From positions 1 to 54,818 of IMG/VR virus record IMGVR_UViG_3300037833_000027: 54,818 nucleotides of DNA. One strand, written 5' to 3'. Made by a program: the position numbers and the translations under genes. This stretch comes from a virus. Under the pieces are notes generated by a model that was given only the letters and a program-made list of their open reading frames with translations, did not search any database and was not told the DNA's origin. This document shows positions 11,217-54,138 of the stretch, in pieces; position 1 is the first letter of the stretch, and the number at the start of each line of letters is the position of its first letter.

Positions 11217-11293
11217 GCCCCCCAGATTAAGGGGTGCCGGAGATTGCAAAACCGTCCGTTTGGCGTCTTCGCCGGTGTCATTGCAGCCATTAT

Positions 11294-11320
11294 GGCGGTA
11301 TCGTGCCGGCGGATACCGCC
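11294..11320. promoter_or_regulatory. Inverted repeat, likely operator
   Basis: GGCGGTATC (11294-11302) and GATACCGCC (11312-11320) are perfect inverted copies with 9 bases between. The repeat ends two bases before the ATG of the DUF429 gene and lies about 80 bases upstream of the divergent XRE regulator. Binding there would block translation or transcription of the DUF429 gene. It has no T run. Confidence 0.6.
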
Positions 11321-11322
11321 TG

Positions 11323-15926: not shown

Positions 15927-16075
15927 CCTGTTCAACCACGAGTCGTGCGAGCATCTCAACCAGCTCGTCCGCGACCGCCGCGGACGACGAGTTGAGTTTG
16001 TCGGGAGGGGAACACGCCGGTTGAGGTTCAGTAATGTTTTGCCTGCGAACATGGTCGGGCGGCGTGCCCGCGCGT

Positions 16076-16101
16076 CCGGAACGCTGGAACACTGGAACAC
16101 C
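16076..16101. repeat. 26-bp inverted repeat, left copy (partner 19795-19820)
   Basis: CCGGAACGCTGGAACACTGG plus AACACC at 16076-16101 is the inverted copy of 19795-19820 with one mismatch (position 16091). Each copy is itself built of iterated GTTCCAGC units. Together they bracket the primase and its partner. The left copy lies between the primase stop and the recombinase gene. Confidence 0.82.
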
Positions 16102-30180: not shown

Positions 30181-30987
30181 ATGCGAGTCGCGGTTCAGAC
30201 CACCACGCTCCCGAGGGAGCAAATCTACTGGCTTGAAGAGTGGGTCAAGTACCACCTGTGGCTCGGGTTCGACCACGTGTTCATCTACGACAACACGGGC
30301 AGCGTGGCCTACGAGTACAGCGCGTTGTTCGGGCAGCCGACCGTCACCACGGACGGCCGCAACTACAAGGGCCACGAGATCAGGGCAATGACCGGCCACC
30401 TCACCGATGCCGACGTGGCCGACATCGTGAAGCAGATCGGGGAGAAGTACGCCGGGCGGGTGACCATCACGCCGTGGTTGCCGCTTAACGCGGAGGGGAA
30501 GCCCTTCTACGGCCAGACGGCCGCGATGGAACACTTCCTCGTGAACCACGGGCCGCACTACGACTGGGTGTTGTTCGTGGACCTCGACGAGTACCTCGTG
30601 AACCCGGACTGGCGGACGTGGTTGGAGCACTTCGAAGCCCACGGCCGCAACGAGGTTCTCGTCGGGGCGAAGTTGTTCCGGGAGCGCATCACCGGGGCGG
30701 TCCCCACGATCCCCACCCAGAGCATCACCCAGAGCTACCCCGACCACTGGGACCGGCAGCCCAAGCGGTTCGCGAAGTGCGCCGACGTGATCCAGCCGGG
30801 AGTTCACTACGGGGGCAAGTGGAGGCAGTACCACCCCGCCCACGACACGTGCCTTTACCTCCACCACTACCGAGTGGAGCGGCGGCAGGAAATCACCCGC
30901 ATGGAGCATGACGACACGCTCGCGAAGATCATCCCCGAACTGCGGCTTGACGGTTGCGTGCCGGTGCCGAGGAAGGCCACGGCGTGA
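30181..30987 (+). CDS. Glycosyltransferase family 2/92-like
   Basis: A 268-residue enzyme that should transfer a sugar from a nucleotide sugar. It has an N-terminal EQIYWLEEWVKYHLWLGFDH, then VFIYDNTG, and the metal-binding DLDEY (about residues 131-135) inside DWVLFVDLDEYLVNP. This is the pattern of DUF23/GT92-type transferases. There is no membrane helix, so it acts in the cytoplasm. Its stop overlaps the next gene's GTG by 3 bases. It lies upstream of the terminase genes in a phage module that has two more sugar-modifying enzymes at its far end. Confidence 0.85.
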   Translation: MRVAVQTTTLPREQIYWLEEWVKYHLWLGFDHVFIYDNTGSVAYEYSALFGQPTVTTDGRNYKGHEIRAMTGHLTDADVADIVKQIGEKYAGRVTITPWLPLNAEGKPFYGQTAAMEHFLVNHGPHYDWVLFVDLDEYLVNPDWRTWLEHFEAHGRNEVLVGAKLFRERITGAVPTIPTQSITQSYPDHWDRQPKRFAKCADVIQPGVHYGGKWRQYHPAHDTCLYLHHYRVERRQEITRMEHDDTLAKIIPELRLDGCVPVPRKATA

Positions 30988-32105: not shown

Positions 32106-34004
32106 GTGGCAGAGACACCCGACGAGAAACACAAGGCCGCACGCAACGCCTACTACGACCAGCACGCCCGAGACCCGGACGCGAAGCGCTTCTACAACAG
32201 CGCGGCATGGAAGCGGGCACGGAAGGCGAAGCTCGCCCAGTACCCCGTGTGCCAGCGATGCGAGAAGGTGTTCGCCGAGCACGTTCACCACGTCATCCCC
32301 CTGAAGGATTGCACCGACGCCCAAAAGCTCGACCCCGGCAACCTGTTCAGCACGTGCGCCCCATGCCACAACATCATGGAGGCCCAGACGCAGAGCGCCG
32401 CCGCCCTCACGGTGTCGGGCACGCTCGTGGTGGCCGAGGACGAGAACTACTTCTACGACGCCGAGGCAGCCGAGAAGCCCGTCCGGTTCATCGAAACCTA
32501 CTGCCGCCACTACGAGGGCCTGTTCGCCGGGCAGCCGTTCACCCTGTTGGACTGGCAGAAGAGCATCATCCGCACCCTGTTCGGGTGGAAACACCGGGGG
32601 ACGGGACTACGCCGGTTCAGGGAGTTGTGGCTTTTGACGGCCAAGGGTGCGGGCAAGACGCCCATGCTCGCCGCCATCGCCCTCTTCATGCTGCTAGGAG
32701 ACGGGGAAGCGGGCGCTCACGTCGTCAGCATGGCCAGCAGCTTCGAGCAGGCCAATCTGACGTTCGACGCGGGCAAAAAGTACATCGCGCAGAACCCCAA
32801 GTTGTCCAAGGCCTGTGAGTCGCAGCAGTTCGTCATCAAGGGGCCGAAGTTCGGCAAGTGGACGACGATCTCCGGGAAACCGAACGGCAGATCGGGGCCG
32901 CGCCCCTCGTGCATCATCGCGGACGAGGTTCACGAGTGGCCCACGGGCACCGACAAGGCCTACGACCTGTTGACGGCCAACTTGTTCAAGCGGTCGCAGC
33001 CCCTGTTGCTCGTGGCCACGAACGCCGGGGCCGACCGCACCGGGTTCGCGTGGCAGTTGCACGAGCGGGCCATGAACGTGTTGTCCGGGAAGGTGACGGA
33101 CGACACGTTGTTGCCGGTCATCTACGAGGCCGACAAGTCGCTCGACTGGCGCAGCGAGGAAGCCGCCAAGGCCGCTAACCCGTCACTGGGCGGGTTCGTC
33201 AGGTTCGAGCAGTTGCAGCCGGAGCAGTTGAAGGGCGAGGCCCGCTACCGCCGCCTGTACCTGTCGCAGTGGGTGACGGGTTCCGACAAGGCGTTCGACA
33301 TGGAGTTGTGGGACTCGTGCGCCGCAGACCTCGACCACGGGAAGTTGAAGGCCCTCCCCCTCTACGTCGGCATCGACGCCAGCGCCGGTGACGACCTGTT
33401 CGCCGTCACCCACGTCTGGGTGACCCCGGAGCGTCACTACGTGGATGCCCACTTCTTTCTCCCCAAGGTGACGGCCCAAAAGTACGAGGACAGCCACCGC
33501 ATCCCGTTCACCCGGTGGGCGGAACAGGGGCACATCACCCTGTTGGACGAGCCGACCATCAACCACGCCGTTCGCCAGCGAATTGCGGCCGAGATCATCG
33601 CCACGAGCAAGGTGAACCCGGTTTTGAAGCTCGGCTATGACCGGGCATGGAAGGCCGACGAGGTGGTGGCCACGGTCGCGGCAGCGGGCATCGAGTGCGA
33701 ACCCATCGGGCAGGGCTGGGGCGTGTGGGAAGGCAGCCGCGAGCTAGACAACCGGTTGAAGGAGAAGGCCGTCACCGTGAGCCGGAACCCCGTGCTGCGC
33801 TGGTGCGCCGAGAACACGGAGTGGGAGCACGGTAAGCACGGGGGGTTCTGGCCGGTCAAGCCCAACGCAAAAGGCAGTTATGCGGGAAGGAGATCGGCCA
33901 AGATCGACGGAATTAGCGCACTGGTGACCTGTCTGACGGAAGCACGGAAGCACGCTTTCCCGAAGACCCAACAGCAATGGCGGGGGACGATCCATTTTGC
34001 ATAA
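32106..34004 (+). CDS. terL: Terminase large subunit with fused N-terminal HNH domain
   Basis: A 632-residue packaging ATPase/nuclease of the HK97 type. Residues about 28-92 are a complete HNH domain: Cys49-x-x-Cys52, His61-His62 (VHHVIPL), Asn79 and Cys84-x-x-Cys87-His88. After a short linker comes TerL: LDWQKSIIRTLFG, Walker A TAKGAGKTPM (about 178-187), Walker B CIIADEVHEW (Asp273, Glu274), and the RNase H-like nuclease with Asp424 (VGIDASAGDD) and a late Asp in AKIDGISAL. In most cos-type phages the HNH protein is a separate gene beside TerL; here both are one continuous frame with no internal start signal. The start is GTG. Confidence 0.93.
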   Translation: MAETPDEKHKAARNAYYDQHARDPDAKRFYNSAAWKRARKAKLAQYPVCQRCEKVFAEHVHHVIPLKDCTDAQKLDPGNLFSTCAPCHNIMEAQTQSAAALTVSGTLVVAEDENYFYDAEAAEKPVRFIETYCRHYEGLFAGQPFTLLDWQKSIIRTLFGWKHRGTGLRRFRELWLLTAKGAGKTPMLAAIALFMLLGDGEAGAHVVSMASSFEQANLTFDAGKKYIAQNPKLSKACESQQFVIKGPKFGKWTTISGKPNGRSGPRPSCIIADEVHEWPTGTDKAYDLLTANLFKRSQPLLLVATNAGADRTGFAWQLHERAMNVLSGKVTDDTLLPVIYEADKSLDWRSEEAAKAANPSLGGFVRFEQLQPEQLKGEARYRRLYLSQWVTGSDKAFDMELWDSCAADLDHGKLKALPLYVGIDASAGDDLFAVTHVWVTPERHYVDAHFFLPKVTAQKYEDSHRIPFTRWAEQGHITLLDEPTINHAVRQRIAAEIIATSKVNPVLKLGYDRAWKADEVVATVAAAGIECEPIGQGWGVWEGSRELDNRLKEKAVTVSRNPVLRWCAENTEWEHGKHGGFWPVKPNAKGSYAGRRSAKIDGISALVTCLTEARKHAFPKTQQQWRGTIHFA

Positions 34005-40365: not shown

Positions 40366-40709
40366 CAGACGGCCAGTGCGAGTTCGCGTTCCTGTTGTGC
40401 CGCACGCTCGGAAACGGCCGGTGGATTCATCCCGACGAGATGCTCGACGAGATGGGCCACCGGCAGTTTCTGGACTGGCAGAGAGCCTACCGCCTCAACC
40501 CGTGGGGTGAAGAGCGGGCCGACATGCGGATGGCCCGTCAAGTCTGGGCCACGCTACAGCCCCACGTGGGCAAGAAGAAGATTCGGGAGTCGGAGTTCGT
40601 CTTCGACTTCCGGCCGAAGCAGGCGCTCACGCCCGAGCAGTACAAGCTGAAGGCGTTGAAGGCCTACGCGGCCAATGGGGGGTTCCATGCCCGGAAAAAC
40701 GATCAGTAG
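40033..40709 (+). CDS. Tail assembly chaperone, frameshifted long form (gpGT-like)
   Basis: A -1 shift at 40344-40350 moves ribosomes past the short stop into a frame ending at 40709. The joined product has about 225 residues. The extension includes CEFAFLLCRTLGNGRWIHPD, FLDWQRAYRLNPWGEERADM and ESEFVFDFRPK. The frame continues from the shift site without a start codon of its own. This conserved GT arrangement occurs in most siphophages. Its end overlaps the tape measure start by 23 bases. Confidence 0.87.
40344..40350 (+). promoter_or_regulatory. Programmed -1 frameshift site A-AAA-AAG
   Basis: The zero frame reads CCA AAA AAG, so tRNAs on AAA and AAG can slip back one base, as on the dnaX site. 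The shift links the two chaperone frames and only works in the -1 direction here. GC-rich sequence follows within 20 bases and might stimulate slippage. Confidence 0.88.
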
Positions 40710-42975
40710 CGTCAGCGTCGGGTTGTTCGGCAACGTCGGGCAGTTCACCAAGGCGTTCGGCCAGAAGGCCACGAGCGCCGTCTCCGGGTTCGTCGGCAGC
40801 GTCACCAGCGCGGCGGGCACGCTCGCCAAGTTCACCGGCGTGGGCGCGGCCATCGGTCTGGGCATGAAGGGCATCGACGCCGCCCTAGGGGGCGTCACCG
40901 GAGGCTTTAAGACCGCCGCCAGCATGGAACAAGCCCAAGTGGCTATGGAGACCATGCTCGGATCGGCCGACGCTGCTCGGAAGGTTCTAGGCGACCTCAC
41001 GAGCTTCGCAGCCTCCACCCCCTTCGAGATGCCGGAGCTTGTGGACTCCACGAAGAAGCTCGTGGCGTTCGGCATCGCGCAGGACAAGTTGATGCCCACG
41101 TTGAACGCCATCGGTGACGTGGCGTCGGGCGTGGGCGTGAACGTGTCCGAGTTGGCCGAAATCTACGGAAAGGCCAAGACGCAGGGCACGTTGATGGCCG
41201 AGGACATCAACCAGTTGACGGGCCGGGGCATCCCGATCATCGCGGAACTAGCCAAGCAGTTCGGGGTGACCGAGGGCGAGGTGAAGAAGCTCGTCAGCGA
41301 GGGCAAGGTCGGGTTCGGCAACCTTGAGAAAGCGTTCGCCAGCATGACCGGCCCCGGTGGCAAGTTCGCTGGGATGATGGAGAAGCAGTCGGGCACGCTC
41401 GCCGGGTTGTGGTCCACCTTGTCCGACACCATCGGCATGACGCTGGCGAAGGTCGCCCAGCAGATCATCGACACGTTCAACATCAAGGACGGGATCAAGG
41501 GACTGACGGCCGGGTTGGGCAACGCCGCTGGCGTCGTGACCGGGTTCGTGGCCAAGGTCGCGCCGATCATCAAGGGGTTCGCCCTAGCCGTCTACAACGC
41601 CTTCACCGCCGCCTACCAGTACGTGGCCCCCATCGTCACCCGCATCTACGAGGTGGTGGCCAACGTGTTCGGGTTGCTCGTGCCCAAGGTCATCGGGGTG
41701 ATGCAGGCCGTGTGGTCCGGCCTCGTGAGCGTGTGGAACGCCATCTACAAGTTCGTCGCCCCCATCGCCACGGGCATCTACCAAGTCATCACTTCCACGT
41801 GGGAGGCGAGCCTACAGACCGTGACCGCCTACGCACTCGGAATCTGGGGTGTGGTCAAGAGCGTGTTCGGCGTGGTTGCGAACGTCGTCTCCACATTGTG
41901 GAGCGGGATCGTCGCCGTGTGGAACTGGGGCAGCGAGTTGATTTTCGGCAAGACCACCACGGTGGGCAACGCGACGGTGACGACGTTCCAGAAGATGGGC
42001 GAGTGGTCCCGCTGGATGATGGACAAGCTCACGTTCGCGTTCAACGTGACGGAGTACGTCATCAGCCACTGGCGGGACGTTTTGGACTTGGCCGTCACGA
42101 AGGCGGCACTCGGCATCGTGCGGTTCGCGAATCAGGTTCAGTATTTCCTAGTGGACGTGATCCCGGCCGTGGCCTCGTGGTTCGCGGACAACTGGAAAGA
42201 GATTTTCATCGACCAGTTCAATTTCACGACCACGATCTACGCCAACCTCGCCCGGAACATCGTCAGGATCATCAAGAACATCCCGAAGCTCATCAAGGGC
42301 GACGTGACGTTCGGCGACCTGTGGACGCCGTTGACGGACGGGTTCAAGGCGACCCTGAAGGAACTGCCGAACATCCCGGAACGGCAGCTAGGCGACTTGG
42401 AGAAGGCCCTCGACCAGAACGTCAGCGACCTAGAGGGGCGGTTTTCCAAGGGGTTGGGCGACCACCTAACAGCGAAGCAGAAGGAAGCCGCCGACGCCGC
42501 CAAGGGCATCGCGGACGGCATCAAGGACGTGTTCAAGGAAGAGGTGAAGCCGCTCACCCCCGAGATCAAGCCGCCCGAGGCCCCGAAGGTGCCGCCGGTG
42601 AAGCTCGACGCAAACCTGAACAACGACAACCTGAAACTGACGGTGACGCCGGAGATCAAGCGAGCCAAGGCTATCACGTTCGGGAGCGCCGAGGCCCAGC
42701 TTCTGCGGCTGAAGGTTCCCGAGCTTGCGAAGGCGGCACCCAAGCCGGGGGCAGCGCCCGCCGCGCCCGCACCAGTTGCACCGGCAGCGCCGCAGCCCGC
42801 CGCGCCCACGGGGCCTGTGTCACCCGAGGCGCGGCAGGCCAGCTACACGGAATCGAAGGGCATGGAGAAGTGGTGGGCACAGTATCTGGCCGAGGCAAAG
42901 AAGCAGACGAGCACGCTCGACAAGATCGAGCAGAACACGAGGGCGGGGACCACGTTGGGCGTGGCCAGCTTCTAA
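40687..42975 (+). CDS. Tail tape measure protein
   Basis: A 762-residue protein that sets tail length and enters the cell during injection. Residues 1-60 are Gly/Ala/Ser-rich helices; about 80-250 match the tape-measure N-terminal domain (VAMETMLGSADAARKVLGDL, TPFEMPELVDSTKKLVAFG, GRGIPIIAELAKQFGV). The middle holds hydrophobic helices likely to act as membrane segments (about 280-420). The C-terminal third is Pro/Ala/Lys-rich. The ATG at 40687 is preferred to 40675 because it follows GGGGGG. Confidence 0.92.
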   Translation: MPGKTISSVSVGLFGNVGQFTKAFGQKATSAVSGFVGSVTSAAGTLAKFTGVGAAIGLGMKGIDAALGGVTGGFKTAASMEQAQVAMETMLGSADAARKVLGDLTSFAASTPFEMPELVDSTKKLVAFGIAQDKLMPTLNAIGDVASGVGVNVSELAEIYGKAKTQGTLMAEDINQLTGRGIPIIAELAKQFGVTEGEVKKLVSEGKVGFGNLEKAFASMTGPGGKFAGMMEKQSGTLAGLWSTLSDTIGMTLAKVAQQIIDTFNIKDGIKGLTAGLGNAAGVVTGFVAKVAPIIKGFALAVYNAFTAAYQYVAPIVTRIYEVVANVFGLLVPKVIGVMQAVWSGLVSVWNAIYKFVAPIATGIYQVITSTWEASLQTVTAYALGIWGVVKSVFGVVANVVSTLWSGIVAVWNWGSELIFGKTTTVGNATVTTFQKMGEWSRWMMDKLTFAFNVTEYVISHWRDVLDLAVTKAALGIVRFANQVQYFLVDVIPAVASWFADNWKEIFIDQFNFTTTIYANLARNIVRIIKNIPKLIKGDVTFGDLWTPLTDGFKATLKELPNIPERQLGDLEKALDQNVSDLEGRFSKGLGDHLTAKQKEAADAAKGIADGIKDVFKEEVKPLTPEIKPPEAPKVPPVKLDANLNNDNLKLTVTPEIKRAKAITFGSAEAQLLRLKVPELAKAAPKPGAAPAAPAPVAPAAPQPAAPTGPVSPEARQASYTESKGMEKWWAQYLAEAKKQTSTLDKIEQNTRAGTTLGVASF

Positions 42976-42990: not shown

Positions 42991-43836
42991 ATGGCAGTAC
43001 ACCGTCAGTCAGCACTAGGAACCGCAGGCAGCACGAAGGACGAGAAGGGCGTGGTGGAGCGCACCGCCACGGAGTATTACCTCGTCACGTTCGGAAGCCC
43101 TTCCACGGCCGTGGCGGCATCCGCCGCCGTGGACGTGGCCACGCACCCCGATGACAGCGCCCTGAAGTTCAAGAGCAAGTCGGCCAAGATGGTTGACGAG
43201 AGCAACCGCCTTGAATGGCAGGTTCAAGTTGACTTCAGCAACAAGCGCCCCGAGGCCGAGCAGGAAGAGAACCCGCTCAACCGCCCCGCCGAATACTCGT
43301 GGTCGTTCGACCAGAGCAGCCAGCCGTATTTCATCGACGTGGAAGACAAGCCCGTGGTGAACACGTCGGGCGAGCCGTTCGAGGACTTGAAGGAACGGGA
43401 GATCAGCAACATCACGGGCAGCGTCAAGAAGAACGTGCCCGCCAGCTACAGCGCAGCCACGCTGGCGAACTACAAGCGGGCCATCAACAACGGCGCGTTC
43501 ACGTTCGACGGCGTGAGCATCGGTGACGGTCAGGCCCGGTTCGCGGGGGCGGACCTGTCCCCCGTGAAGAGCGAGAACGGCGTCAGCTACCGCGAGATCA
43601 GCGTCACGTTCAAATTCCGAGAGACATGGGACGATGAAGTAGAAGACCGGGGCTTCAACGAGTTGGGGGCGGGGAACAAGTTGAAGGAGATCGTCAAGGG
43701 CGTGCCGCCCACGAGGGTGGACAAGCCCTACCCGCTGGACGGGGCGGGCAAGGCAAAGCCGAACCCCACCGACGTGCCGCACAAGCTGACGTTCAAGCCC
43801 TACGACCGCTTGCCGTTCAACGTGTTCAACTTCTAA
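42991..43836 (+). CDS. Tail protein (distal tail-like)
   Basis: A 281-residue beta-rich protein after the tape measure gene. It has VVERTATEYYLVTFGSPST, SNRLEWQVQVDFSNKRPEAE, and PAEYSWSFDQSSQPYFIDVE. I do not recognise a named family. Position suggests a distal tail or baseplate-hub subunit. A strong GGGGGA ribosome site precedes it. It has no signal peptide. Confidence 0.75.
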   Translation: MAVHRQSALGTAGSTKDEKGVVERTATEYYLVTFGSPSTAVAASAAVDVATHPDDSALKFKSKSAKMVDESNRLEWQVQVDFSNKRPEAEQEENPLNRPAEYSWSFDQSSQPYFIDVEDKPVVNTSGEPFEDLKEREISNITGSVKKNVPASYSAATLANYKRAINNGAFTFDGVSIGDGQARFAGADLSPVKSENGVSYREISVTFKFRETWDDEVEDRGFNELGAGNKLKEIVKGVPPTRVDKPYPLDGAGKAKPNPTDVPHKLTFKPYDRLPFNVFNF

Positions 43837-43847
43837 GGGGCGGGGCG

Positions 43848-44834
43848 ATGCCGGAAAAGGTCTACGGGTTTGGTGCGGATGATGCGAAGCGCATCATCAA
43901 AGCCGCCAAGTTTATCGAGCAGCTTCCCACGAAGACGGGGGAGCGGGACAAGTTCCGCCTAGAGGAACCGCAGCGTGGGTTCTGGGCCATCATCGTTTGT
44001 TGTGGCCCCCGTGGCTGCCAGATCGACCCCGACTTCAAGGACAACCGCTACTGGTTCAAGCGGGCCTACGTCGCCAACAGCAACGGTTCCGACCCGGACG
44101 ACTTCAACGCGCAGGTGGACACCTCGAAAGAGAAGGTGTCCTACGTCATCGAACCCGCGACGTTGGACGGGAAGGCGAACCCCTACTACCTCCACCGGGC
44201 GGGCACGCACCACTTCGAGATGTGCAACTCGCACGAGTTGAAGCCCGGCGTCATCGTCTGGGTGAAGTGGGAGTACGACCGCAGCCCGAAAGCCAAGCCC
44301 CGCTACAGCATCTTTGCCGCCGACCGGTGGGCGGAATGTCTGGCCCCTTGTGACACGTCCAGTAGTTCCAGCGGATCGAGTTCCTCTAGCTCGTCGTCCT
44401 CGTCGAGCAGTTCGAGCAAGAGCCAGAGCGGAAGCTCTTCCAGTAGTTCGTCGGGCAGCGGTTCCAGCAGCAAGAGCAGCAAGAGCGGCAGCACCGTCAA
44501 CCCGAGTTCCAGCAGCAGCGGCAGCGGTTCGGGTAGCAGCAGCAAGAGCGGCAGCGGCAGCGGCAGCCAGCCGCCGCCTACGGGTTCATCGTCGGGCAGT
44601 GGGAGCGGAAGCCAGCCGAGTGGCGGCAGTGGCGGCAGTGGCGGCAGTGGCGGTTCCGGCGGAAGCGGTGGGAGTGGTGGTTCTGGCGGGAGCGGCGGCA
44701 GTGGCGGTTCCGGCGGCGGCAGTGGGTCCAGCGGGTGCAACTGCCCGTGGGAGTACAAGACCGTGGTGACCGGGGTGTCGTGCGTGAACGGCCAGATTCA
44801 GGTGACAACGGAAACGATCAAGGTTCTCACGTAA
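43848..44834 (+). CDS. Tail protein with long Ser/Gly-rich region
   Basis: A 328-residue protein. Residues 1-165 form a compact domain with Cys pairs (VCCGPRGCQ, then ECLAPC). Residues about 166-295 are almost only Ser and Gly, with serine runs grading into GSG repeats, then a short Cys-containing end (CNCPWEY). The repeat is a flexible stalk and a good O-glycosylation target. It overlaps the next similar gene by one base (TAATG). A glycosyltransferase follows two genes later. Confidence 0.8.
   Translation: MPEKVYGFGADDAKRIIKAAKFIEQLPTKTGERDKFRLEEPQRGFWAIIVCCGPRGCQIDPDFKDNRYWFKRAYVANSNGSDPDDFNAQVDTSKEKVSYVIEPATLDGKANPYYLHRAGTHHFEMCNSHELKPGVIVWVKWEYDRSPKAKPRYSIFAADRWAECLAPCDTSSSSSGSSSSSSSSSSSSSSKSQSGSSSSSSSGSGSSSKSSKSGSTVNPSSSSSGSGSGSSSKSGSGSGSQPPPTGSSSGSGSGSQPSGGSGGSGGSGGSGGSGGSGGSGGSGGSGGSGGGSGSSGCNCPWEYKTVVTGVSCVNGQIQVTTETIKVLT
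44621..44725 (+). repeat. GGCAGT-type microsatellite in the Ser/Gly stalk
   Basis: Tandem GGCGGCAGT and GGCGGTTCC-like units encode repeating Gly-Gly-Ser. Such repeats can change copy number by slippage, so stalk length may vary between isolates. They are coding repeats, not a CRISPR array. Confidence 0.8.
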
Positions 44835-46243
44835 TGCCCGATCCTGTCATCACCACCATCGGCCCATGCGGTTGCTGCGGTTCCAGCAGCAGCAGCAGCA
44901 GCAGCAGCAGTTCCCGCAGCACGTCGTCATCCAGCGGAAGCGGGATGCGTGAGGCGTGTTTCGCCAAGTTCACGTGTGACCACGTGTGTGCGAGCGGAGG
45001 CGGGACTTTCGGCCCCGTCACCCACGTCGTGACCCAGTGCGGCAACACGTTCGGCCTAGGTGAAGGCGTCTGGGTCTACACGGGGCAGACCGGCAGCACG
45101 TGCCACTACGCCTACGTGAAGCGGGGTGCGTTCTGCGATCAAGTCCCATCGTGCGGGGAGGACACGTTCTTTCAGCCCACCCCGCCCGCCCCGCCAGCGT
45201 CCGCGTTCTCGTGCCCGTGTGGCCCGAGTAGTAGCAGCAGCACGAGCAGGAGCGGCAGCGGTGGCAGCAGCGGGAGCGGCTCGGGCAGCGTGACTCAGCT
45301 TTACACGCTGACGCCGTGTGGTGGAGGAACGGTCGTCAAGACGACCGAAGACCTTGAGTCGGTCATCATCACGGGTTCCATCGTTCGCTGGCAGGGCAAG
45401 TGCTACACGGTGGGCGGGCCGGTGCCGAACGACGGTACGGGCATCGCGACCGCGACGGAATCCACCGTCTACTCGACTTGCACCGGTTGCCAATCCGTGG
45501 GCAGCGGCAGTGCGAGCACGAGCGTCAGCACGAGCGGTTCCAACGGATCATCCAACACGACGGGCAGTAGCGGCGGCAGCGGGTCGGGTGGATCGGCCAG
45601 CGGGTCGGGCGGCAGCAGCAGCGATGGCGAGCCGCAGCGCTCGTGCTGGACGAAGTGGTACTACTGGTGGAACTGCCGCACCCGCCAACTCAGCGGGCCG
45701 TTCGCCGACTTCACGGACTGCCGCAACGCGGACGGCAGCGACGTTTACACGGACTGGTTGAACGAGGGGGAGACCGTCTTCGGCAACGAGGTCACGTACA
45801 TCCAGTGCAAGTTCAGCAGGTTCGTGAGCCGTGACTACAACTGCGTCCCGGACCCGGACGGCGGCGGGCCGCAGCAGAGCAGTTGCAGCGGCATGGCAGC
45901 GGGCAGCCCCCCTACCGGCCAGCCCACGCAGGCACAACTAGACACGTGCGGTTGCCCGCCGCTCAGTTCTAGCAGCGTCAGCGTCAGCGTCAGCAGCAGC
46001 AAGACCGGCAGCGGCAGCACGACGGGTAGCGGCAGCGGCAGCCATAGCACCGGCGTGAGTAGCGGCAGTCGGGGGGAGGGTAGCACCAGCACCACCACAC
46101 CAAGTAACGGCAGTGGCAGCAGGCCCGGTAGTGGCAGCAGCAGTGGCAGCGGCAGCAGCAGTTCCGGGGCTGGCAGTGGCGGGCCACCGCTGCAAGCCGC
46201 CCGGCCGGGGAACGACTGCGGATGCAGCCGGGCCAAGAGATAA
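44834..46243 (+). CDS. Cys-rich tail protein with four Ser/Gly linkers
   Basis: A 469-residue protein that begins at the ATG overlapping the previous stop. Small Cys-rich domains (PCGCCG, CFAKFTCDHVCA, CSCWTKWYYWWNC-like text, CGCPPL) alternate with Ser/Gly-rich linkers, including a run of AGC serine codons near 44881. It ends CGCSRAKR. The modular beads-on-a-string layout suggests a fibre or tail tip exposed on the virion. No chaperone or known receptor-binding domain could be recognised. Confidence 0.78.
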   Translation: MPDPVITTIGPCGCCGSSSSSSSSSSSRSTSSSSGSGMREACFAKFTCDHVCASGGGTFGPVTHVVTQCGNTFGLGEGVWVYTGQTGSTCHYAYVKRGAFCDQVPSCGEDTFFQPTPPAPPASAFSCPCGPSSSSSTSRSGSGGSSGSGSGSVTQLYTLTPCGGGTVVKTTEDLESVIITGSIVRWQGKCYTVGGPVPNDGTGIATATESTVYSTCTGCQSVGSGSASTSVSTSGSNGSSNTTGSSGGSGSGGSASGSGGSSSDGEPQRSCWTKWYYWWNCRTRQLSGPFADFTDCRNADGSDVYTDWLNEGETVFGNEVTYIQCKFSRFVSRDYNCVPDPDGGGPQQSSCSGMAAGSPPTGQPTQAQLDTCGCPPLSSSSVSVSVSSSKTGSGSTTGSGSGSHSTGVSSGSRGEGSTSTTTPSNGSGSRPGSGSSSGSGSSSSGAGSGGPPLQAARPGNDCGCSRAKR

Positions 46244-46267
46244 CGAAGACGCAAAGGGGGCGGGGAA

Positions 46268-47641
46268 ATGCGACCGGAAGACGTTTCAGAAGTCCACATC
46301 ATCAACTTGAAGACGAGGCCAGACCGTTGGGTCAACCTCACGTCCGCAATCGACAAGTGCGGGTGGCCCTTCCCCCAGCCGCAGCGGTTCAGCGCCGTCA
46401 GCGGCGACAAGGTGGGCGTCCCCGGTGACTACGCCTACCAGTACGGGGGCCGCGACATAGGCGCACGCGGGTTCTACGAGGGCGGCGGCGCGTTCGGGTG
46501 CAAGCAGTCTCACGTTGCTATCTTGCAGGACTGCTTGATGCGGGACGTGCCGTCCGTGTTGATCCTAGAAGATGACGCGCTCATCGCCCCGGACTTCGGA
46601 CAGCAGGTTCGGCAGTTCCTAGCAGAAGTCCCCGACGACTGGGAAGGCATCATGCTTGGAGGGCAGCACCACGCCGACCCCTCGACCATCGGGCCGAACG
46701 TGGTGAAGGTGAACTACGCCCAGCGCACCCACGCCTACATCGCCCGTGGCGAGTACATGCGGGAGTTGTACCGCCGGTGGGTTCACGCCGGTGCCCACGT
46801 TGACTGGTTGATGGAGAACTGGCAGCACACGCAGCGGGTCTACGCCCCGGTGAAATGGCTCGTGGCGCAGGCGGCGGGGAAGAGCGACATCAACGGCCGC
46901 ACGAACCCCGCCCAGAGTTGGAACGACCCCACGGGCGAGGAACCGGTCATCCACTTGCGAGCGCCCCGACACGTGGCGGAAGAGTTGCGGTTGTGGGGAC
47001 TCCACTACGGGTTCGACCGCGACCCGGAGACGGGAATCGACAAGGGGCTGACGCACGTGATGGCCAGCGGGAACGCGGAGAAGAGCGCCCCGCTTCGCAA
47101 CTGGGTGGCGACGATCCAGCGGGAGGCCATCAGCACGCCGGGCACCGTGGCCACGGTCTGGCACCCCGAGGTGACGACAGAACTCGCACGGCGGGCCGTG
47201 CCCGCCATCGCCAAGGTCTACAACATCGACGCGGACAACATCGCCGACGCCGTGGCCCAGTTGCCCCCCGAGTTGAACCTCGTGCGAACCACCACGTTCG
47301 CCCACCGGTTCACCGTGCTGTTGCGGTCATCTAGGGCCGTGATGGAGCAGTTGCGCGGCCACGGGTTCCACACGGGCTACTGGCGAGGCGGGGACGGCAT
47401 CGACAACGGCTTGAGGGACGTGATGGACTTGCAGGGGCCACCACGGGCCGACGCCCTACGCCAGTGGTGCGCATCGCTCGCCAGAGAGGCCGAGACGATC
47501 CACGAGGGCGTGGTCACTGTGTGGCATCCAGAGGCCACCAGAGAAGAACTAGAGGCCGCTACGGGCCACGCCGTGTTGGAGATCGCCGCCACGAGTGCCG
47601 ACGAGGTGTTGAACGCCTTCCAGCGACAGGTGGCCGCGTAA
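46268..47641 (+). CDS. Glycosyltransferase family 25-like with duplicated C-terminal module
   Basis: A 457-residue enzyme. Residues 1-220 fit GT25 (LPS-type galactosyl/glucosyltransferases): VHIINLKTRPDRW at the start, GAFGCKQSHVAILQDCL, and the metal-binding VLILEDDALIAPDF. After residue 240 a module of about 75 residues occurs twice (from about 240 and 360), sharing G-x-D-x-GL-x-x-VM, LR-W-A-x-x-RE and VATVWHPE / VVTVWHPE. The module is unknown. The gene directly follows the serine-rich tail genes. Confidence 0.86.
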   Translation: MRPEDVSEVHIINLKTRPDRWVNLTSAIDKCGWPFPQPQRFSAVSGDKVGVPGDYAYQYGGRDIGARGFYEGGGAFGCKQSHVAILQDCLMRDVPSVLILEDDALIAPDFGQQVRQFLAEVPDDWEGIMLGGQHHADPSTIGPNVVKVNYAQRTHAYIARGEYMRELYRRWVHAGAHVDWLMENWQHTQRVYAPVKWLVAQAAGKSDINGRTNPAQSWNDPTGEEPVIHLRAPRHVAEELRLWGLHYGFDRDPETGIDKGLTHVMASGNAEKSAPLRNWVATIQREAISTPGTVATVWHPEVTTELARRAVPAIAKVYNIDADNIADAVAQLPPELNLVRTTTFAHRFTVLLRSSRAVMEQLRGHGFHTGYWRGGDGIDNGLRDVMDLQGPPRADALRQWCASLAREAETIHEGVVTVWHPEATREELEAATGHAVLEIAATSADEVLNAFQRQVAA

Positions 47642-47652
47642 CAGGGGGAGCA

Positions 47653-48972
47653 ATGCAGCGAACGGACATCATCAACGAGTTGATCGCACGCCGGGGGTTC
47701 ACGTCCTACCTCGAAATCGGCGTGAGGGACGTGGCAGCGAACTTTAACCACATCCGTGGCCAGAACAAGGTGGGCGTTGACCCGTCCCCCGACGTGTCCG
47801 AAGGCGTGACGCACCTAGTCACGTCCGACGTGTTCTTCGCCAACAACGTGCAGAAGTTCGACCTCGTGTTCATCGACGGGTTGCACACCGAGGAACAGGT
47901 GGGCCGCGACATCGACAACGCCTTGAAGGCCCTCAACCCCGGCGGCGTGATCGTCGTTCACGACGCCCTGCCGCCCACGGCGTGGCACCAGCGTGACCAC
48001 TACGACGGGCAGGACTGGACGGGGACAGGTTGGAAGGCCGTGGCCAAGGCGTTCGCCACGAGCCGCAGCCGGTGTTACGTGGTCGATGGCGACTGGGGGT
48101 GCGCCGTCATCGACACGGGCAGCCCCGTCGCCCACCGCTACGCGCCCGAGACGCCCCTCGACTACGACCGGGACTTCCCGAGCTTCCGGCAGACGTTCGC
48201 CGTGACGCCGGAACAGTTCACTGAGGGCCTGAGCACCGGCCCGCAGGCGAAGCCCAAGCGGGTGAGGATGTTCGTCTGGACGCCGGGGCACATCGCCATG
48301 AACCTGCACACGGAGATGGTCCGGGTTCAGAGCCTCGTGGCCCGCCGCCTACGCCGGGCGATGCCCGACGTGGAGTTCGTCCACGCGCTCGTGTGCGACC
48401 GGATCGACGAGCCGCAGGTGGAGGCCGTCAGGGAGATCGGGAAGGACTTCGACCAGTTCCACCACGGCATCCCGCCCGAGTACGGGCAGGCGTGGGGGAT
48501 TCGCAAGCCCACCCACTACGCCCTCGACCTTGCCAGAGCGGCCGGGTGTTCCCACATGCTCCGCGTCATTCAGGACACGTTCATCATGGACGTGGCCAAG
48601 TTCGCCGCCGACGTGGGCGAGGTGTTGAAGACGCCGGGCGACTGGTTGGGGGCCAACCGCCACGACTGGGAGACGGACGGGCACCGCAGCGTGTGCGAGG
48701 AAATGGGCATCCCGTTAAACACCAAGTTGCGTTACCCGAACGGGGCCGTGATGGTCGCCCCGTTGGCGACGTGGCAGCGGTTTTACGTGCCGATGCCCGC
48801 GAGGATCAACCACTACTGGGACGACATCATCATGGGCGAGTGGATGCTCCACGCGGGGGCCACGCTCGTGGACCTGCCGACGACGTGGGCGCACTTGCAC
48901 GACAGCCGCCCCGAGGTGAGCCGCAGCCACTACGAGGCCCACGCCGCCGAGCTTGCGACACACCCCACCTGA
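47653..48972 (+). CDS. SAM methyltransferase fused to a glycosyltransferase-like domain
   Basis: A 439-residue two-domain protein. Residues about 15-165 are a class I methyltransferase of the Methyltransf_24 kind: SYLEIGVRDVAANF (SAM site), VGVDPSP, FDLVFIDGLHTEEQVGRDI, and GGVIVVHDALPP. From about 198 a second domain starts (RVRMFVWTPGHIAMNLHTEM) with features of sugar transferases (HYWDDIIMGEWML, PTTWAHLHD). It probably methylates and adds sugars to the same target. It has GGGGGAG upstream and ends the structural operon. Confidence 0.78.
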   Translation: MQRTDIINELIARRGFTSYLEIGVRDVAANFNHIRGQNKVGVDPSPDVSEGVTHLVTSDVFFANNVQKFDLVFIDGLHTEEQVGRDIDNALKALNPGGVIVVHDALPPTAWHQRDHYDGQDWTGTGWKAVAKAFATSRSRCYVVDGDWGCAVIDTGSPVAHRYAPETPLDYDRDFPSFRQTFAVTPEQFTEGLSTGPQAKPKRVRMFVWTPGHIAMNLHTEMVRVQSLVARRLRRAMPDVEFVHALVCDRIDEPQVEAVREIGKDFDQFHHGIPPEYGQAWGIRKPTHYALDLARAAGCSHMLRVIQDTFIMDVAKFAADVGEVLKTPGDWLGANRHDWETDGHRSVCEEMGIPLNTKLRYPNGAVMVAPLATWQRFYVPMPARINHYWDDIIMGEWMLHAGATLVDLPTTWAHLHDSRPEVSRSHYEAHAAELATHPT

Positions 48973-49020
48973 GGCCCACCCTGTGGCGCTGTGCCTGAAC
49001 AGTCTGACGACGGCGTAGCG

Positions 49021-49032
49021 TGTTGGCCAACA
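49021..49032. repeat. 12-bp palindrome TGTTGGCCAACA
   Basis: A perfect palindrome in the 170-bp gap between the prophage module and the type III methylase gene. It lies about 110 bases upstream of that gene's start and could be an operator. No XRE gene is adjacent on the 5' side. Confidence 0.45.
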
Positions 49033-49142
49033 TGAAGTTACGCGAGTTGTGGACCGTCTGATCCCGTACGCCCGCTTTCTTGCGTACCCCATCGCCCCGG
49101 ATAGGATGGTCGGCTGTCATGCGGGGAGGCGTCGGAACAAAA

Positions 49143-51593
49143 ATGGCCAAGCTCAGCCGTCAGCAAATCGAGGAAATTAAAGCGCTTCTGGACGCCGGGC
49201 AGGAGCTTGGCGAAGAGCACCTAGACCTCCTGTTACCAGCCGAGCGACGGCGAGAATACGAGCTTGTATATGCGGGCAAGACCAGAGCCGAGGCCGTTCT
49301 CTCCGACACGTGGAGCGTCCCTCTTCAGCCCCTCAAGACGTTCGGCGTGCCCAAGGGGCAGGCCAGCCCCGAGTGGACAAACCGCCTGATCTTCGGGGAC
49401 AACCTTCAGGTTCTGAAGCGGCTGACGGACGACCCGGCCGTCGCTGGCCGGGTGAAGCTGGTCTACATCGACCCGCCCTTCGCGACCATGCAGGAGTTTC
49501 GGGGGAATGAGGAACAGAAGGCGTATCAAGACAAGATCGCCGGTTCGGCCTTTATCGAGTTCCTTCGGAAGCGGCTGATCCTGCTGCGTGAGCTTTTGCA
49601 CCCGAGCGGGGGCATTTACCTGCACTTGGACACCCGGAAGTCGCACTACCTAAAAGTCGTGATGGACGAGGTGTTCGGCGAGAACAACTTCCAGAACGAA
49701 ATCGTCTGGCGGAACACGAACACGCACAACAAGGCGCAGACCTTCGGTGAGATTCACCAGAACATCCTGTTCTACTCCAAATCTTCCGCCCTCGACTTCC
49801 ACAAGCTGAAAAGGCCACGGTTCAAGAAGTACGTCGAGCAACGGCACCGCTTTACCGATGACCGAGGGACTTACCGCTCATCCGACCTGACCGGCGAGGG
49901 CACCCGCACGGGCGACTCGGGCAGAAAGTGGCTCGGCTACGACCCCACGGCGGCGGGCAGACACTGGGCCATCCCTAGCTACGTGTATGACCTCATCGAC
50001 GAGGACATTTCTCATCTCCCTCTCTTGAAGAAGTTAGATTACCTGCTCGAACACGAACTCGTCATCCCGCCGTCGAAGCCCGGCGGTCAGCCGTCGATCA
50101 AGCGATACCGGAATGAAGATGATGGTTCCTTTGTGCAGGACATCTGGTCATATCAGCCGTACACGGAGGGCATCTACGCCAACAGTAAAGAGGCCATCGA
50201 CGAGGACGTGATTTACAGGGTGGGGCCGAAGGAGCATACCGGCTACCCCACCCAAAAGCCCGAGGGACTGTTGTCCCGGATCATCCGCTCTTGCACCACG
50301 GAGGGCGACCTCGTGCTCGACGCTTTTGGCGGATCGGGCACCACAGTGGCCGTGGCTGAAAAACTGGGCAGGCGGTGGATCGGGATCGACTGCGGCAAGC
50401 TCGCGATCTACAGCATCCAGAAGCGGCTGCTGAACCTGAGCACCGAGGTGGGCGGCAAGGGGAAGCCACTGCCGCCGCAGCCGTTCACGCTCTACAACGC
50501 CGGGCTGTACGACCTGCCGAGGATGCGGGATTTGCCTTGGGATGACTACCGCACCTTCGCCCTTCAACTCTTCCAAGTTCGTCACGAGCCGCACAAGCTA
50601 GGCGGCATCGCACTAGACGGGTTCAAAAGCACCGGGGACGTGCTCGTCTTCAACTTCCAGCAGAACGCCGGTGTTCAGCTTGACGAAGAGTACGTGCGGG
50701 AGTTGCACCGCCACCTAGGCGGACGCACGCGCGACGAGTTCTACATCATCGCCCCCGCCTCGCGCGTGACGTTCCTAGAGGACTACATCGACATCGACGA
50801 GACCCGGTACTACTTCCTGCGCATCCCGTACTCGATCATTGACGAACTACATGACCGCCCGTTCCGAGAGATTCGTCAGCCGATCAACGAAAAGGAAGTG
50901 AACGCCACCGTCGAGGCTGTCGGGTTCGACTTCATCCAGCCCCCGAGGCTGAAGGCCAGCTACGCCTACGAGAAGCCCGAACAGGAACTGTTCGGGGCTG
51001 CGACCATCCTCATCGAAGAGTTCCACAGCGAGGCGATGCTAAAGCGAGACCGGGAGTACGAAAACCGGGAGACGCTTTCGATGGTGATGGTGGACTACGA
51101 CTACAAGGGGAACGGCGAGGGCACGTTCGAATTGGACCTCGTGCTGTACCGGCACGAGATCGAAGAGGCGGGGTGGAAGGTGCGGTTGAACCCGAACAGC
51201 ATCGCCTCTCGGGTTATGATTATTTACATCGACATCTTCGGTAACGAACTCAGAGAGGTGAAGACACCGAACGACTTCGGCATCACGGAGTTGCCGAACG
51301 CGAAGGACGTAGACGCTGAGGGCACCGGGGACGTGGGCGAGCCTGTTGACGACGAGGACGATGACGACCGGGCAGGCGCGGGCGAGCCGGAGGCCTCAGG
51401 TCAGATGCGCCAGCGGAAGCCGAAGTCGAAGCCCACCAAAGCCGCAGCCAAGTCCGGCAACAACGGGAACGGATTGCACCGCAAGAAGCCAATCCGGCGA
51501 GCCAAGGTCAAACGGTCGCCGTTGCCGAAGCCGTCCAAGCAGAAGAAGGCGTTGACGAAGAGCGTATCGAGGAAGGCCACATCTCGAAGGTAG
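49143..51593 (+). CDS. mod: Type III restriction-modification methyltransferase (Mod)
   Basis: An 816-residue N6-adenine methylase that recognises the site for the complex. Catalytic motif IV is DPPF at 110-113 (YIDPPF) and the SAM motif DAFGGSGTTV is at about 394-403, the beta-class order of Mod proteins. Between them is the target-recognition region. The last 110 residues are unusual: an acidic run (DDEDDDD) then a Lys/Arg-rich tail. The ATG at 49143 follows GGGGAGG by 13 bases; an ATG at 49119 would add eight residues. The res gene follows after 10 bases. Confidence 0.92.
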   Translation: MAKLSRQQIEEIKALLDAGQELGEEHLDLLLPAERRREYELVYAGKTRAEAVLSDTWSVPLQPLKTFGVPKGQASPEWTNRLIFGDNLQVLKRLTDDPAVAGRVKLVYIDPPFATMQEFRGNEEQKAYQDKIAGSAFIEFLRKRLILLRELLHPSGGIYLHLDTRKSHYLKVVMDEVFGENNFQNEIVWRNTNTHNKAQTFGEIHQNILFYSKSSALDFHKLKRPRFKKYVEQRHRFTDDRGTYRSSDLTGEGTRTGDSGRKWLGYDPTAAGRHWAIPSYVYDLIDEDISHLPLLKKLDYLLEHELVIPPSKPGGQPSIKRYRNEDDGSFVQDIWSYQPYTEGIYANSKEAIDEDVIYRVGPKEHTGYPTQKPEGLLSRIIRSCTTEGDLVLDAFGGSGTTVAVAEKLGRRWIGIDCGKLAIYSIQKRLLNLSTEVGGKGKPLPPQPFTLYNAGLYDLPRMRDLPWDDYRTFALQLFQVRHEPHKLGGIALDGFKSTGDVLVFNFQQNAGVQLDEEYVRELHRHLGGRTRDEFYIIAPASRVTFLEDYIDIDETRYYFLRIPYSIIDELHDRPFREIRQPINEKEVNATVEAVGFDFIQPPRLKASYAYEKPEQELFGAATILIEEFHSEAMLKRDREYENRETLSMVMVDYDYKGNGEGTFELDLVLYRHEIEEAGWKVRLNPNSIASRVMIIYIDIFGNELREVKTPNDFGITELPNAKDVDAEGTGDVGEPVDDEDDDDRAGAGEPEASGQMRQRKPKSKPTKAAAKSGNNGNGLHRKKPIRRAKVKRSPLPKPSKQKKALTKSVSRKATSRR

Positions 51594-51603
51594 GGAGGGG
51601 ACC

Positions 51604-54138
51604 GTGAAGGACACTACCCAGTACAAGCACGAAGACTTGGTTCTCAAGGTCACGCCGAACATCGACCCGGCCAAGTTCGACATGAACAGGTTCGAGCCGT
51701 TCCTCGACAGCATTTCCGGTGACCGGGAGTACCAGAAGGCCACGATCCGCACGGTGTGCAACTACCTCTTCGGCGAAGCGTACCCGAACCTGCGGGCACT
51801 GGCCGGGCAGAATTACAAGGCAAACCCGGTGCTCCGCGAGAAGTACCCGACGCTGGCCGCGTTCGAAGCACAGCTTCAGCTACCGGAGCAGTTGGCGTGT
51901 TCCGTGGACCTCGCGACGGGGACGGGGAAAAGCTACGTCATCTACGCCATCGCCCGCATCGCGTTGGCGGCGGGCAAGGTTGACCGGGTACTAGTCCTCT
52001 GCCCGTCCAACACCATCGAGGCCGGGCTGCTCGACAAGTTCCATGCCGAGTCGAAACAGCCGGACCACACCGACGTTCTACCGGCGGATTCGGTCTACAA
52101 GGTTCCCCACGTGACCAACGCCACGGAGACCGTGCTCCCCGGCGGCGTTTGCATCGAGAACCGCCACGCGGTCTACGCCGGAACGAAAAGCGCTATCGAG
52201 GATTCGTTCAAGGGCATGGGTGACCGCACGCTGGTGTTGTGTGACGAAGCGCACCACATTTACACCCCGGAGCAGGAAGGCCTGCGGCGATGGAAGGAGT
52301 TCCTGCTTTCCCCGGAGTACGGGTTCCGCTACGTGGTCGGGTTCTCCGGGACGTGCTACGTCGGGAACGAGTATTTCACTGATGTGGTGGCCCGCTATCC
52401 GTTGCGGCAGGCCACCGATGACGGCCGTGTGAAGCAAGTCGAGTACACGGTGGACAACGGCACCAACGACGCACGGGAGAAGCTACAGCAGATTTACGAG
52501 AACCACCTCGACAAGCGGAAGAAGTACAAGCTCGTCAAGCCGGTGACCATAATCATCACTCGCGACATCCCGACGTGTAAGCGGCTCACGGACGAGTTGA
52601 TCGAGTTCCTCGCCGAGCAGGAAGGCATCACCGAAGATCAGGCAGCCGCGAAGGTGATGCGAGTTCACACGAAGCGAGGGTCGGGTCAAGGCGCTAAGGA
52701 AGACGCCCAAATCCCATTGAACTTGGCGAAGCTCCGCGCTGGGGAACCGGACCAGAAGGACAGCCCTGTCGAGTGGATTACGTCGGTCAGCATGTTGACC
52801 GAGGGCTGGGACGTGAAGAACGTGTTCCAGATCGTCCCGCACGAAGAACGTGCGTTCAATTCCAAGTTGCTGATCTCCCAAGTGCTCGGACGCGGGCTGC
52901 GGGTTCCACCCGAGTTCGCCGGTCAGAACCCGATGGTGACCGTGTTCAACCATGCGAAGTGGAGCGGGCGGATCAAGGAACTCGTGGAAGAGGTGCTCGA
53001 AGAGGATAAGAAGGTCACTTCCGCCGTCGCCAAGAAAGACCCTGCCTTTGACTTCTCGTTCCACCACATCGACTACGAGAAGTCTCAGCAGATTACCGAG
53101 ACCAAGCAGGAGTCCGAGTACAACTTCGACATGCCCTACGTGAACCTCGCCGTTCAGCGGAAGGTTCTGGATCGGCAGACGGTCTACGAGGCGGCGCTCA
53201 CCAGCCAGCGGCGCAACAAGACGACGGCCGTGCGGATCGAAATGTATTCCGTCGAGGAGGTGGTCAACGCCGTCTACAACAAGTTCAAGGCCATCGACCT
53301 TGAGGAACAGACGGAGTACGCCAAGAAGATGCCGAAGGACAAGATTCGGAACTTGATCCGCGCGTCCCTCGACCAGATCAAGTACGACGGGAACGACGTG
53401 AGCAAAGAGAACAAGCAGCGAATCCTGTCATCGTTCGGCAACCTGAAGCGGGCGGGGAGCAAGAGCATTCGTTACAAGGTCGAGGCCACGAACGTGCGGC
53501 CGATGAAGGCGTCGGGCCGGGGCGTGGAGAACGTCAGCACGTCGATGTTGCGGAGGGGCATTGCGACCGTCTTCTATGACGACCAGTCGAAGACGTTCGA
53601 CCCCGTGCTCGCACAGGTGATCGGGGAGATCGAAGACCAGTTTTCCGACCTGCCGAAGTCAGCCGGGTACAGAGTGCCGAACTCGTTCCTGTTCAAGACG
53701 TGCCTCTCCGTGGCCGTCACCGTGGGCGACCCGGAACGCAGGTTCCTTTACAAGCTGGTTCAGGCCGAGAACGCCGCCAAGATCGACGGTTGGCTGAAGA
53801 ACACGGACAGCGGGTTCTACGAGATCGAGTACTCGTACTCCCGTGGGGACTATTCGCGGCGCGGCATGTTCAACCCCGACTTCTTCATCAGCATGGGCAC
53901 CGACGTACTCGTCGTCGAAATCAAGGAAGACGACGAGGCCAAGAACCCGTCACCCGAGAACGCGGGGAAGCGGCGGGCAGCCGAGACCCACTTCGAGTTG
54001 TTGAACCAGTTGCAGGGTGAGATGAAATACCACTTCTGCTTTCTCACCCCGAGCGACTACGACCTTTTCTTTGCGGAGCTACGGGAAGGACGCGCCATGA
54101 CCTTCCGCAGCGGCTTGGACGTGGAGTTGATGAAGTGA
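51604..54138 (+). CDS. res: Type III restriction endonuclease subunit (Res)
   Basis: An 844-residue helicase/nuclease that cuts unmodified DNA with Mod. Helicase motifs: DLATGTGKSYVI (Walker A, about 102-113), CDEAHH (about 212-217), GFSGTCY, SMLTEGWDVKN and LGRGLR. The C-terminal PD-(D/E)XK nuclease is FNPDFFISMG ... VVEIKEDD (Asp about 759, Glu-x-Lys about 772-774). Both catalytic sites look intact. GTG start with GGGAGGGGA upstream. Confidence 0.93.
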   Translation: MKDTTQYKHEDLVLKVTPNIDPAKFDMNRFEPFLDSISGDREYQKATIRTVCNYLFGEAYPNLRALAGQNYKANPVLREKYPTLAAFEAQLQLPEQLACSVDLATGTGKSYVIYAIARIALAAGKVDRVLVLCPSNTIEAGLLDKFHAESKQPDHTDVLPADSVYKVPHVTNATETVLPGGVCIENRHAVYAGTKSAIEDSFKGMGDRTLVLCDEAHHIYTPEQEGLRRWKEFLLSPEYGFRYVVGFSGTCYVGNEYFTDVVARYPLRQATDDGRVKQVEYTVDNGTNDAREKLQQIYENHLDKRKKYKLVKPVTIIITRDIPTCKRLTDELIEFLAEQEGITEDQAAAKVMRVHTKRGSGQGAKEDAQIPLNLAKLRAGEPDQKDSPVEWITSVSMLTEGWDVKNVFQIVPHEERAFNSKLLISQVLGRGLRVPPEFAGQNPMVTVFNHAKWSGRIKELVEEVLEEDKKVTSAVAKKDPAFDFSFHHIDYEKSQQITETKQESEYNFDMPYVNLAVQRKVLDRQTVYEAALTSQRRNKTTAVRIEMYSVEEVVNAVYNKFKAIDLEEQTEYAKKMPKDKIRNLIRASLDQIKYDGNDVSKENKQRILSSFGNLKRAGSKSIRYKVEATNVRPMKASGRGVENVSTSMLRRGIATVFYDDQSKTFDPVLAQVIGEIEDQFSDLPKSAGYRVPNSFLFKTCLSVAVTVGDPERRFLYKLVQAENAAKIDGWLKNTDSGFYEIEYSYSRGDYSRRGMFNPDFFISMGTDVLVVEIKEDDEAKNPSPENAGKRRAAETHFELLNQLQGEMKYHFCFLTPSDYDLFFAELREGRAMTFRSGLDVELMK

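Follow-up and report, generated by a model that had tools for sequence, protein, structure and literature searches.

Serine-rich tail genes followed by sugar-transfer genes in an IMG/VR virus: a probable cassette for glycosylation of the tail stalk

The DNA analysed here (the window) comprises 54,818 bases, recorded in IMG/VR as a virus. Head and tail genes are found from about 30 kb onwards, in the order GT92/GT2 gene, terS (at 31729), TerL (at 32106), portal, S78 protease, HK97-type capsid, tape measure, a tail gene of 281 amino acids and, finally, the four genes that are the subject of this report, orf1 to orf4. These four are all on the + strand, with very short gaps, and adjoin the end of a siphovirus-type tail module; since the tape measure gene precedes them, the cassette closes that module. 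The first two encode serine-rich tail proteins, and the other two carry a glycosyltransferase (GT) and a methyltransferase domain. Related viral loci are designated L with a number.

30181..30987, + strand: second sugar transferase, GT92 / GT2_4, upstream of terS (PF01697 2.2e-12, PF13704 9.4e-11)
40675..42975, + strand: tape measure protein (PF20155 2.9e-29; homologous to the L003 tape measure, 1e-52)
42991..43836, + strand: 281-amino-acid tail protein between tape measure and orf1 (phmmer 8.1e-5 to L073 4893-5792)
43848..44834, + strand: orf1, Ser/Gly-rich tail protein, SerA position (open reading frame (ORF) calling; slot as in L003 and L006)
44834..46243, + strand: orf2, Cys/Ser/Gly-rich tail protein, SerB position (ORF calling, composition)
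46268..47641, + strand: orf3, GT25 glycosyltransferase with two tandem domain copies of ~110 amino acids (PF01755 1.4e-9)
47653..48972, + strand: orf4, N-terminal Methyltransf_24 (MT24), C-terminal half without a Pfam class (PF13578 3.7e-12)

The orf1 protein has 328 residues, of which 78 are Ser, 52 Gly and 9 Cys, and its Ser runs are 14, 7, 5 and 5 residues long. It consists of an N-terminal domain of ~167 residues, a Ser/Gly stalk and a short Cys-containing C-terminus. The start codon of orf2 (ATG 44834) overlaps the orf1 stop (TAATG), and the protein of about 469 residues (102 Ser, 80 Gly, 26 Cys; one run of 11 Ser) is built of Cys-containing modules with Ser-rich linkers between them. Serine makes up 4.9% of the remaining phage proteins, at which frequency only ~4e-12 runs of 11 or more would be expected per 1000 residues, so the runs are not due to chance. 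Those in orf1 mix several Ser codons, which points to selection for serine itself and not to a simple repeat of the DNA; the 11-residue run of orf2 is mostly AGC. The two serine-run tail proteins described in the initial annotation are thus present, although of the two only orf2 is Cys-rich.

orf3 is a GT25 enzyme, a predicted transferase, and lies directly after the serine-rich genes, as initially annotated: PF01755 matches with 38.5 bits against a curated cut-off of 24. An alignment of seven full-length GT25 proteins, including the relatives described below, has an invariant LEDDA motif in the GT-A domain and a common C-terminal region. The AlphaFold2 model of orf3 has a mean pLDDT of 75.7, and Foldseek matches its GT domain, and only that domain, to COLGALT1 (5.2e-9) and mimivirus R655 (8e-7), in agreement with the sequence profiles. 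The C-terminal region of orf3 is internally duplicated (39% identity over ~100 residues, E 3e-18), giving two copies (window 46943-47638) of a domain of ~110 residues with the pattern G-x-H-x-G ... WHP and no Pfam match. In L003 a third copy opens the next ORF (11259-11594), upstream of sequence without a Pfam match. This domain is a candidate docking domain; conservation in the repeat alignment is too low for scanning.

The class-I methyltransferase domain at the N-terminus of orf4 is clear (47.5 bits against a cut-off of 26.3). The glycosyltransferase-like domain to which it was initially described as fused is less so: the C-terminal 239 residues have no Pfam hit even at E<5, and the single-sequence structure model is unusable (mean pLDDT 35). 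WavE/GT-A-like features in this half were an impression only, and were not confirmed. The transferase noted upstream of terS is borne out by its GT92 and GT2_4 matches, and possibly contributes to the same pathway. The proteins from orf3, orf4 and the GT92 gene have no strongly hydrophobic membrane-type segment (maximum KD19 1.18), which agrees with the cytosolic modification proposed below.

The association of serine-rich tail genes with GT genes was examined from both sides. Starting from the enzyme, IMG/VR holds six other full-length members of the orf3 GT25 subfamily, to which a second GT25 alignment scan added none. They are 43-50% identical and have the same C-terminal repeat region. All six lie directly 3' of a tail gene that encodes a Ser run or Ser/Pro/Gly repeats. 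This gene is strongly poly-Ser in L002, L003, L006 and L007; in L004 it is a homologue of the L002 Ser gene and its Ser run is short; and the L005 contig edge falls inside an 18-residue Ser/Pro/Gly tandem repeat. Three virion architectures carry the pairing, namely a siphovirus tape measure type (L003/L006), the L002/L004 type, and a myovirus baseplate type (L007). GT genes without Ser-rich neighbours, which the initial annotation named as contrary evidence, were thus not found in the full-length subfamily; the GT-domain-level relatives L008-L010 do lack Ser runs, and the L008 GT25 cassette adjoins a tail gene without them.

The gene after the GT25 gene differs between relatives. In L005-L007 it is GT32/Caps_synth together with GT8; in L004 it is an IRX15/GXM methyltransferase fusion (3.9e-20), with a UDP-GlcNAc 2-epimerase and a sulfotransferase further upstream; and in L002 it is an MT24 fusion followed by an epimerase. 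The slot order tape measure, gene of ~285 amino acids, SerA, SerB, GT recurs in L003 and L006. The L073 relative of the 281-amino-acid gene likewise lies upstream of Ser-rich genes and a GT9 gene; a scan for relatives of the 281-amino-acid gene itself retrieved none. Genome contigs searched with GT25 and TerL gave no matches.

In several relatives a zinc-ribbon-like segment (C..C...C..CGC ... CP) is fused to, or lies beside, the sugar enzymes:

L003 10986-12599: zinc-ribbon-like segment
L005 218-560: zinc-ribbon-like segment
L007 9341-10000: zinc-ribbon-like segment
L133 587-976: zinc-ribbon-like segment
L154 9016-12099: zinc-ribbon-like segment

From the serine side, a scan of viral contigs for (AGY)10 repeats, blind to GTs, gave at least 120 loci, with ~30 real Ser-run ORFs among the matches listed. 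Nine of the Ser-run records among these matches have a GT2 or GT9 gene, and five of the nine have it no more than 1.2 kb from the Ser gene, where placement alone predicts 0.9-1.06 (P 0.0008-0.0016; this and all later P values take the phages as independent once one obvious clade is collapsed, with no tree behind them).

In one of these records, the low-GC phage L019 (35-4487; contig 43415-49954), a Ser/Thr/Pro-rich mucin-like gene lies beside genes for GT60 (GlcNAc transferase, PF11397 1.7e-67), a CmcI/MT24-like methyltransferase, GT4 and GT2. On contig G008 (103376-104942, - strand) GT9 and MT24 domains occur in one ORF of 507 amino acids, the poly-Ser genes of that 120-kb phage being far off. 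In L069 (8423-9805) one ORF contains a Ser-rich segment twice, in tandem and identical, which may be an assembly or repeat artefact.

A second retrieval from the serine side used a C-terminal domain (KSxAIVP...SAYP), here called A5, that is common to the Ser proteins of L003, L006, L118 and L066. It gave 33 viral loci, of which 32 have Ser-rich linkers, and where the sequence extends far enough a second Ser-rich gene usually follows. Six of the Ser-bearing loci end within 1.6 kb and were left out; in 25 of the remaining 26 a glycan enzyme lies within ~4.5 kb downstream. The four seeds were picked with GTs already seen adjacent, and leaving them out gives 21 of 22; eight loci (L168-L175) form one clade. 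The sole member without a Ser linker, L177, has no GT2, GT9 or GT25 match in its record. Placement within records was assessed for three GT families in the non-seed, clade-collapsed loci: 7 of 12 have the GT within 1.5 kb (2.1 expected, P 0.001) and 9 of 12 within 4 kb (3.8 expected, P 0.0009).

The clearest control for this adjacency is the contrast between the two flanks. The 84 upstream ORFs have mostly tail protein matches and a single GT, whereas the 61 downstream ORFs have GT25 (eight), GT9 (three), Stealth (three), MT24, FkbM, sulfotransferase and Caps_synth (two each), and GXM, GT_PLOD, GT7C and pyruvyltransferase. The co-occurrence check proposed in the initial annotation thus finds adjacency whether one starts from the enzyme or from the serine-rich gene. 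Two A5 loci also have unusual ORFs. In L162 (9323-13189) a single ORF of 1289 amino acids combines domains of the Stealth, GXM methyltransferase (4e-39), Caps_synth and GT8-like types, and possibly makes up an entire glycan pathway by itself. In L161 a radical SAM gene (14168-15418) follows the Ser-stalk gene and an ORF of 1661 amino acids.

On the basis of the genes, their domains and their conserved adjacency, we consider it probable that the cassette directs cytosolic O-glycosylation, with methylation of the glycan, of the Ser-stalk tail proteins orf1 and orf2. The pairing recurs in many unrelated uncultivated viruses, and for this reason they probably sugar-coat their own tail stalk. Late in infection, two elongated tail proteins would be made, with small folded domains joined by Ser/Gly stalks. 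In the cytosol, before or during tail assembly, the soluble GT25 enzyme would use a nucleotide sugar as donor to glycosylate the stalk serines, or else would extend a first sugar already there. The orf4 methyltransferase would then O-methylate the glycan, and its C-terminal half, possibly with the GT92 protein, may add further sugars. The resulting virion would have a mucin-like glycosylated stalk at the tail tip, which would stiffen and protect the fibre, alter adsorption, or both. In this scheme we infer the virion location and acceptor role of orf1 and orf2, the sugar, the order of the steps, the benefit and the target of orf4.

The closest structures to the orf3 GT25 domain are protein glycosyltransferases such as COLGALT1, which counts in favour of this scheme, as does the pairing of Ser/Thr/Pro-rich genes with GT60 and other sugar enzymes in L019. 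The initial interpretation is supported in part. Its central point, action of the sugar enzymes on the Ser-rich tail proteins, has the support of an adjacency conserved from both sides. Methylated glycans are made more plausible by GXM, FkbM and MT24 methyltransferases, which recur beside or fused to sugar transferases in relatives.

Several observations weigh against the scheme. The orf1 and orf2 proteins have no phmmer match to the A5-bearing proteins of L003, L006, L118 and L066; they lack the A5 C-terminal domain, and are therefore tied to that family by position and by the relatives of their neighbouring genes, not by homology. Some poly-Ser phage genes, such as that of L059, have no nearby GT. 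Two of the A5 loci, L154 and L160, rest on Pfam hits below the curated cut-off, and in L161, the only Ser-bearing locus without a near glycan enzyme, the GT25 gene is 7.1 kb away. No full-length relative of orf4 was found in the viral contigs, its best PHROGs hits are labelled DNA methyltransferase, and MT24 also covers methyltransferases acting on non-sugar substrates. Finally, GT25 also includes lipopolysaccharide (LPS)-biosynthesis enzymes.

This last point leads to a different explanation, that the GT and methyltransferase genes are lysogenic-conversion genes (morons) that alter a host surface glycan for superinfection exclusion, the side of the tail module being just a common insertion site. 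Serotype-changing phage GTs are known (cited in PMC10955285), and the heptosyltransferase-type GT9 is recurrent in relatives. Yet the record has no GtrA flippase match and the three enzymes lack membrane segments, so that conversion of the Gtr type is disfavoured; the genes of the cassette share one direction, have almost no gaps and are coupled to the Ser-rich genes; GTs of various families recur specifically 3' of Ser-stalk genes, the upstream neighbours being tail genes; and L177, the only A5 member without a Ser linker, gave no GT2, GT9 or GT25 match. We regard host conversion as unlikely. Slightly less likely still is that the Ser/Gly stalks are unglycosylated flexible linkers, a role in which such sequences are classic spacers, and that the sugar enzymes modify another virion protein such as capsid or tail tube. 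The glycans of mycobacteriophages are reported on these two proteins (PMC12619734), and the L008 cassette beside a tail gene without Ser runs is in keeping with this explanation. Against it stand a Ser-specific adjacency that recurs over unrelated tail types, and retention of the GT as stalk length varies, down to the short Ser run of L004.

Hypermodification of the phage DNA against restriction, by glucosylation and methylation, would suit the best PHROGs families, 'glucosyltransferase' and 'DNA methyltransferase'. It is very improbable, and we reject it because the record has no thymidylate-synthase-type hydroxymethylase and the nearest structures to orf3 are protein GTs and not DNA GTs; moreover, the sulfotransferases, pyruvyltransferase, GXM and UDP-GlcNAc 2-epimerase of relatives suit glycans rather than DNA bases. 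Missing partner genes thus weaken both the DNA and the host-conversion explanations, and the Ser-specific adjacency weakens all three.

Glycosylation of the tail stalk would resemble several known systems. Virion glycosylation is described for mycobacteriophage Che8 and relatives (Freeman et al., 2023, as cited in PMC12619734, PMC11256854 and PMC12691614), where phage-encoded GTs are proposed or shown to glycosylate the phage's own virion proteins, as we propose here. The initial suggestion that such a system would be new was therefore too strong. The glycans are reported there on capsid and tail-tube C-termini (PMC12619734), and the GT genes of Maravista are near the 3' end of the genome; in the window, by contrast, they lie directly 3' of dedicated Ser-stalk tail genes, and relatives add methyl-, sulfo- and pyruvyltransferases. 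A tblastn search with orf3 at E<=0.01 had no mycobacteriophage among its hits, and we therefore consider the system only to work alike, and do not class it in the mycobacteriophage set.

In the serine-rich repeat (SRR) adhesins of Gram-positive bacteria, Ser-rich stretches are O-glycosylated in the cytosol by GtfAB, with accessory Sec (PMC7948813). There too the substrate gene adjoins its GTs, with variable extending GTs (PMC7948813), but the proteins here are viral tail proteins, the enzyme is GT25 rather than a GtfAB pair (no match to GT4, PF00534, the GtfA/GtfB type, in the record), and a signal peptide or accessory Sec is not expected. The phage enzyme has the GT-A/GT25 fold and LEDDA-type motif in common with COLGALT1 and mimivirus R655. 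COLGALT1 glycosylates protein side chains, on hydroxylysine; unlike it, the phage enzyme has the two extra C-terminal domains. With phage O-antigen-converting Gtr systems the cassette has phage-encoded sugar transfer in common, and it differs from them in the absence from the record of a GtrA match and of membrane segments in its enzymes. No description of Ser-stalk phage tail glycosylation was found in the open-access literature.

Elsewhere in the window, a Type III-like restriction-modification pair lies directly 3' of the cassette (49080-54138, + strand), consisting of an N6/N4 methylase of 837 amino acids (PF01555 3.8e-44) and a helicase-like partner of 844. The TerL ORF (32106-34001, + strand) has an N-terminal HNH domain (PF01844 2e-6) in addition to the TerL ATPase and nuclease. 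Towards the left there are a large serine recombinase (13749-16100, - strand) and a transposase-like ORF abutting a truncated helicase-like ORF (22001-22869), and the left part may belong to another mobile element or to the host.

More widely, we tentatively suggest a 'tail mucin' module, present in many uncultivated tailed phages that are not related to each other, in which dedicated Ser-stalk tail proteins are combined with a freely exchangeable glycan cassette (GT25, GT9, Stealth, GT60 and others, with methyl-, sulfo- or pyruvyltransferases, often fused as multi-enzyme polypeptides), producing a virion-specific glycan on which hosts, predators or receptors would exert diversifying selection. 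Docking of the enzymes to the stalks may be the task of accessory domains, the WHP repeat and the zinc ribbons.

Phage virions are usually regarded as bare protein. Glycosylation of phage virions is already known; a variant with dedicated Ser stalks and exchangeable glycan cassettes seems not to have been described. The idea can be tested directly in many phages through its gene signature, a Ser-stalk tail gene with glycan enzymes after it. If correct, it would provide glycoengineering with soluble O-glycosyltransferases of bacterial type that have simple Ser repeats as acceptors, and widespread modular methylated or sulfated O-glycans on the tail stalk would bring a further component, variable and not made of protein, into phage-host recognition, stability and evasion of host defences.

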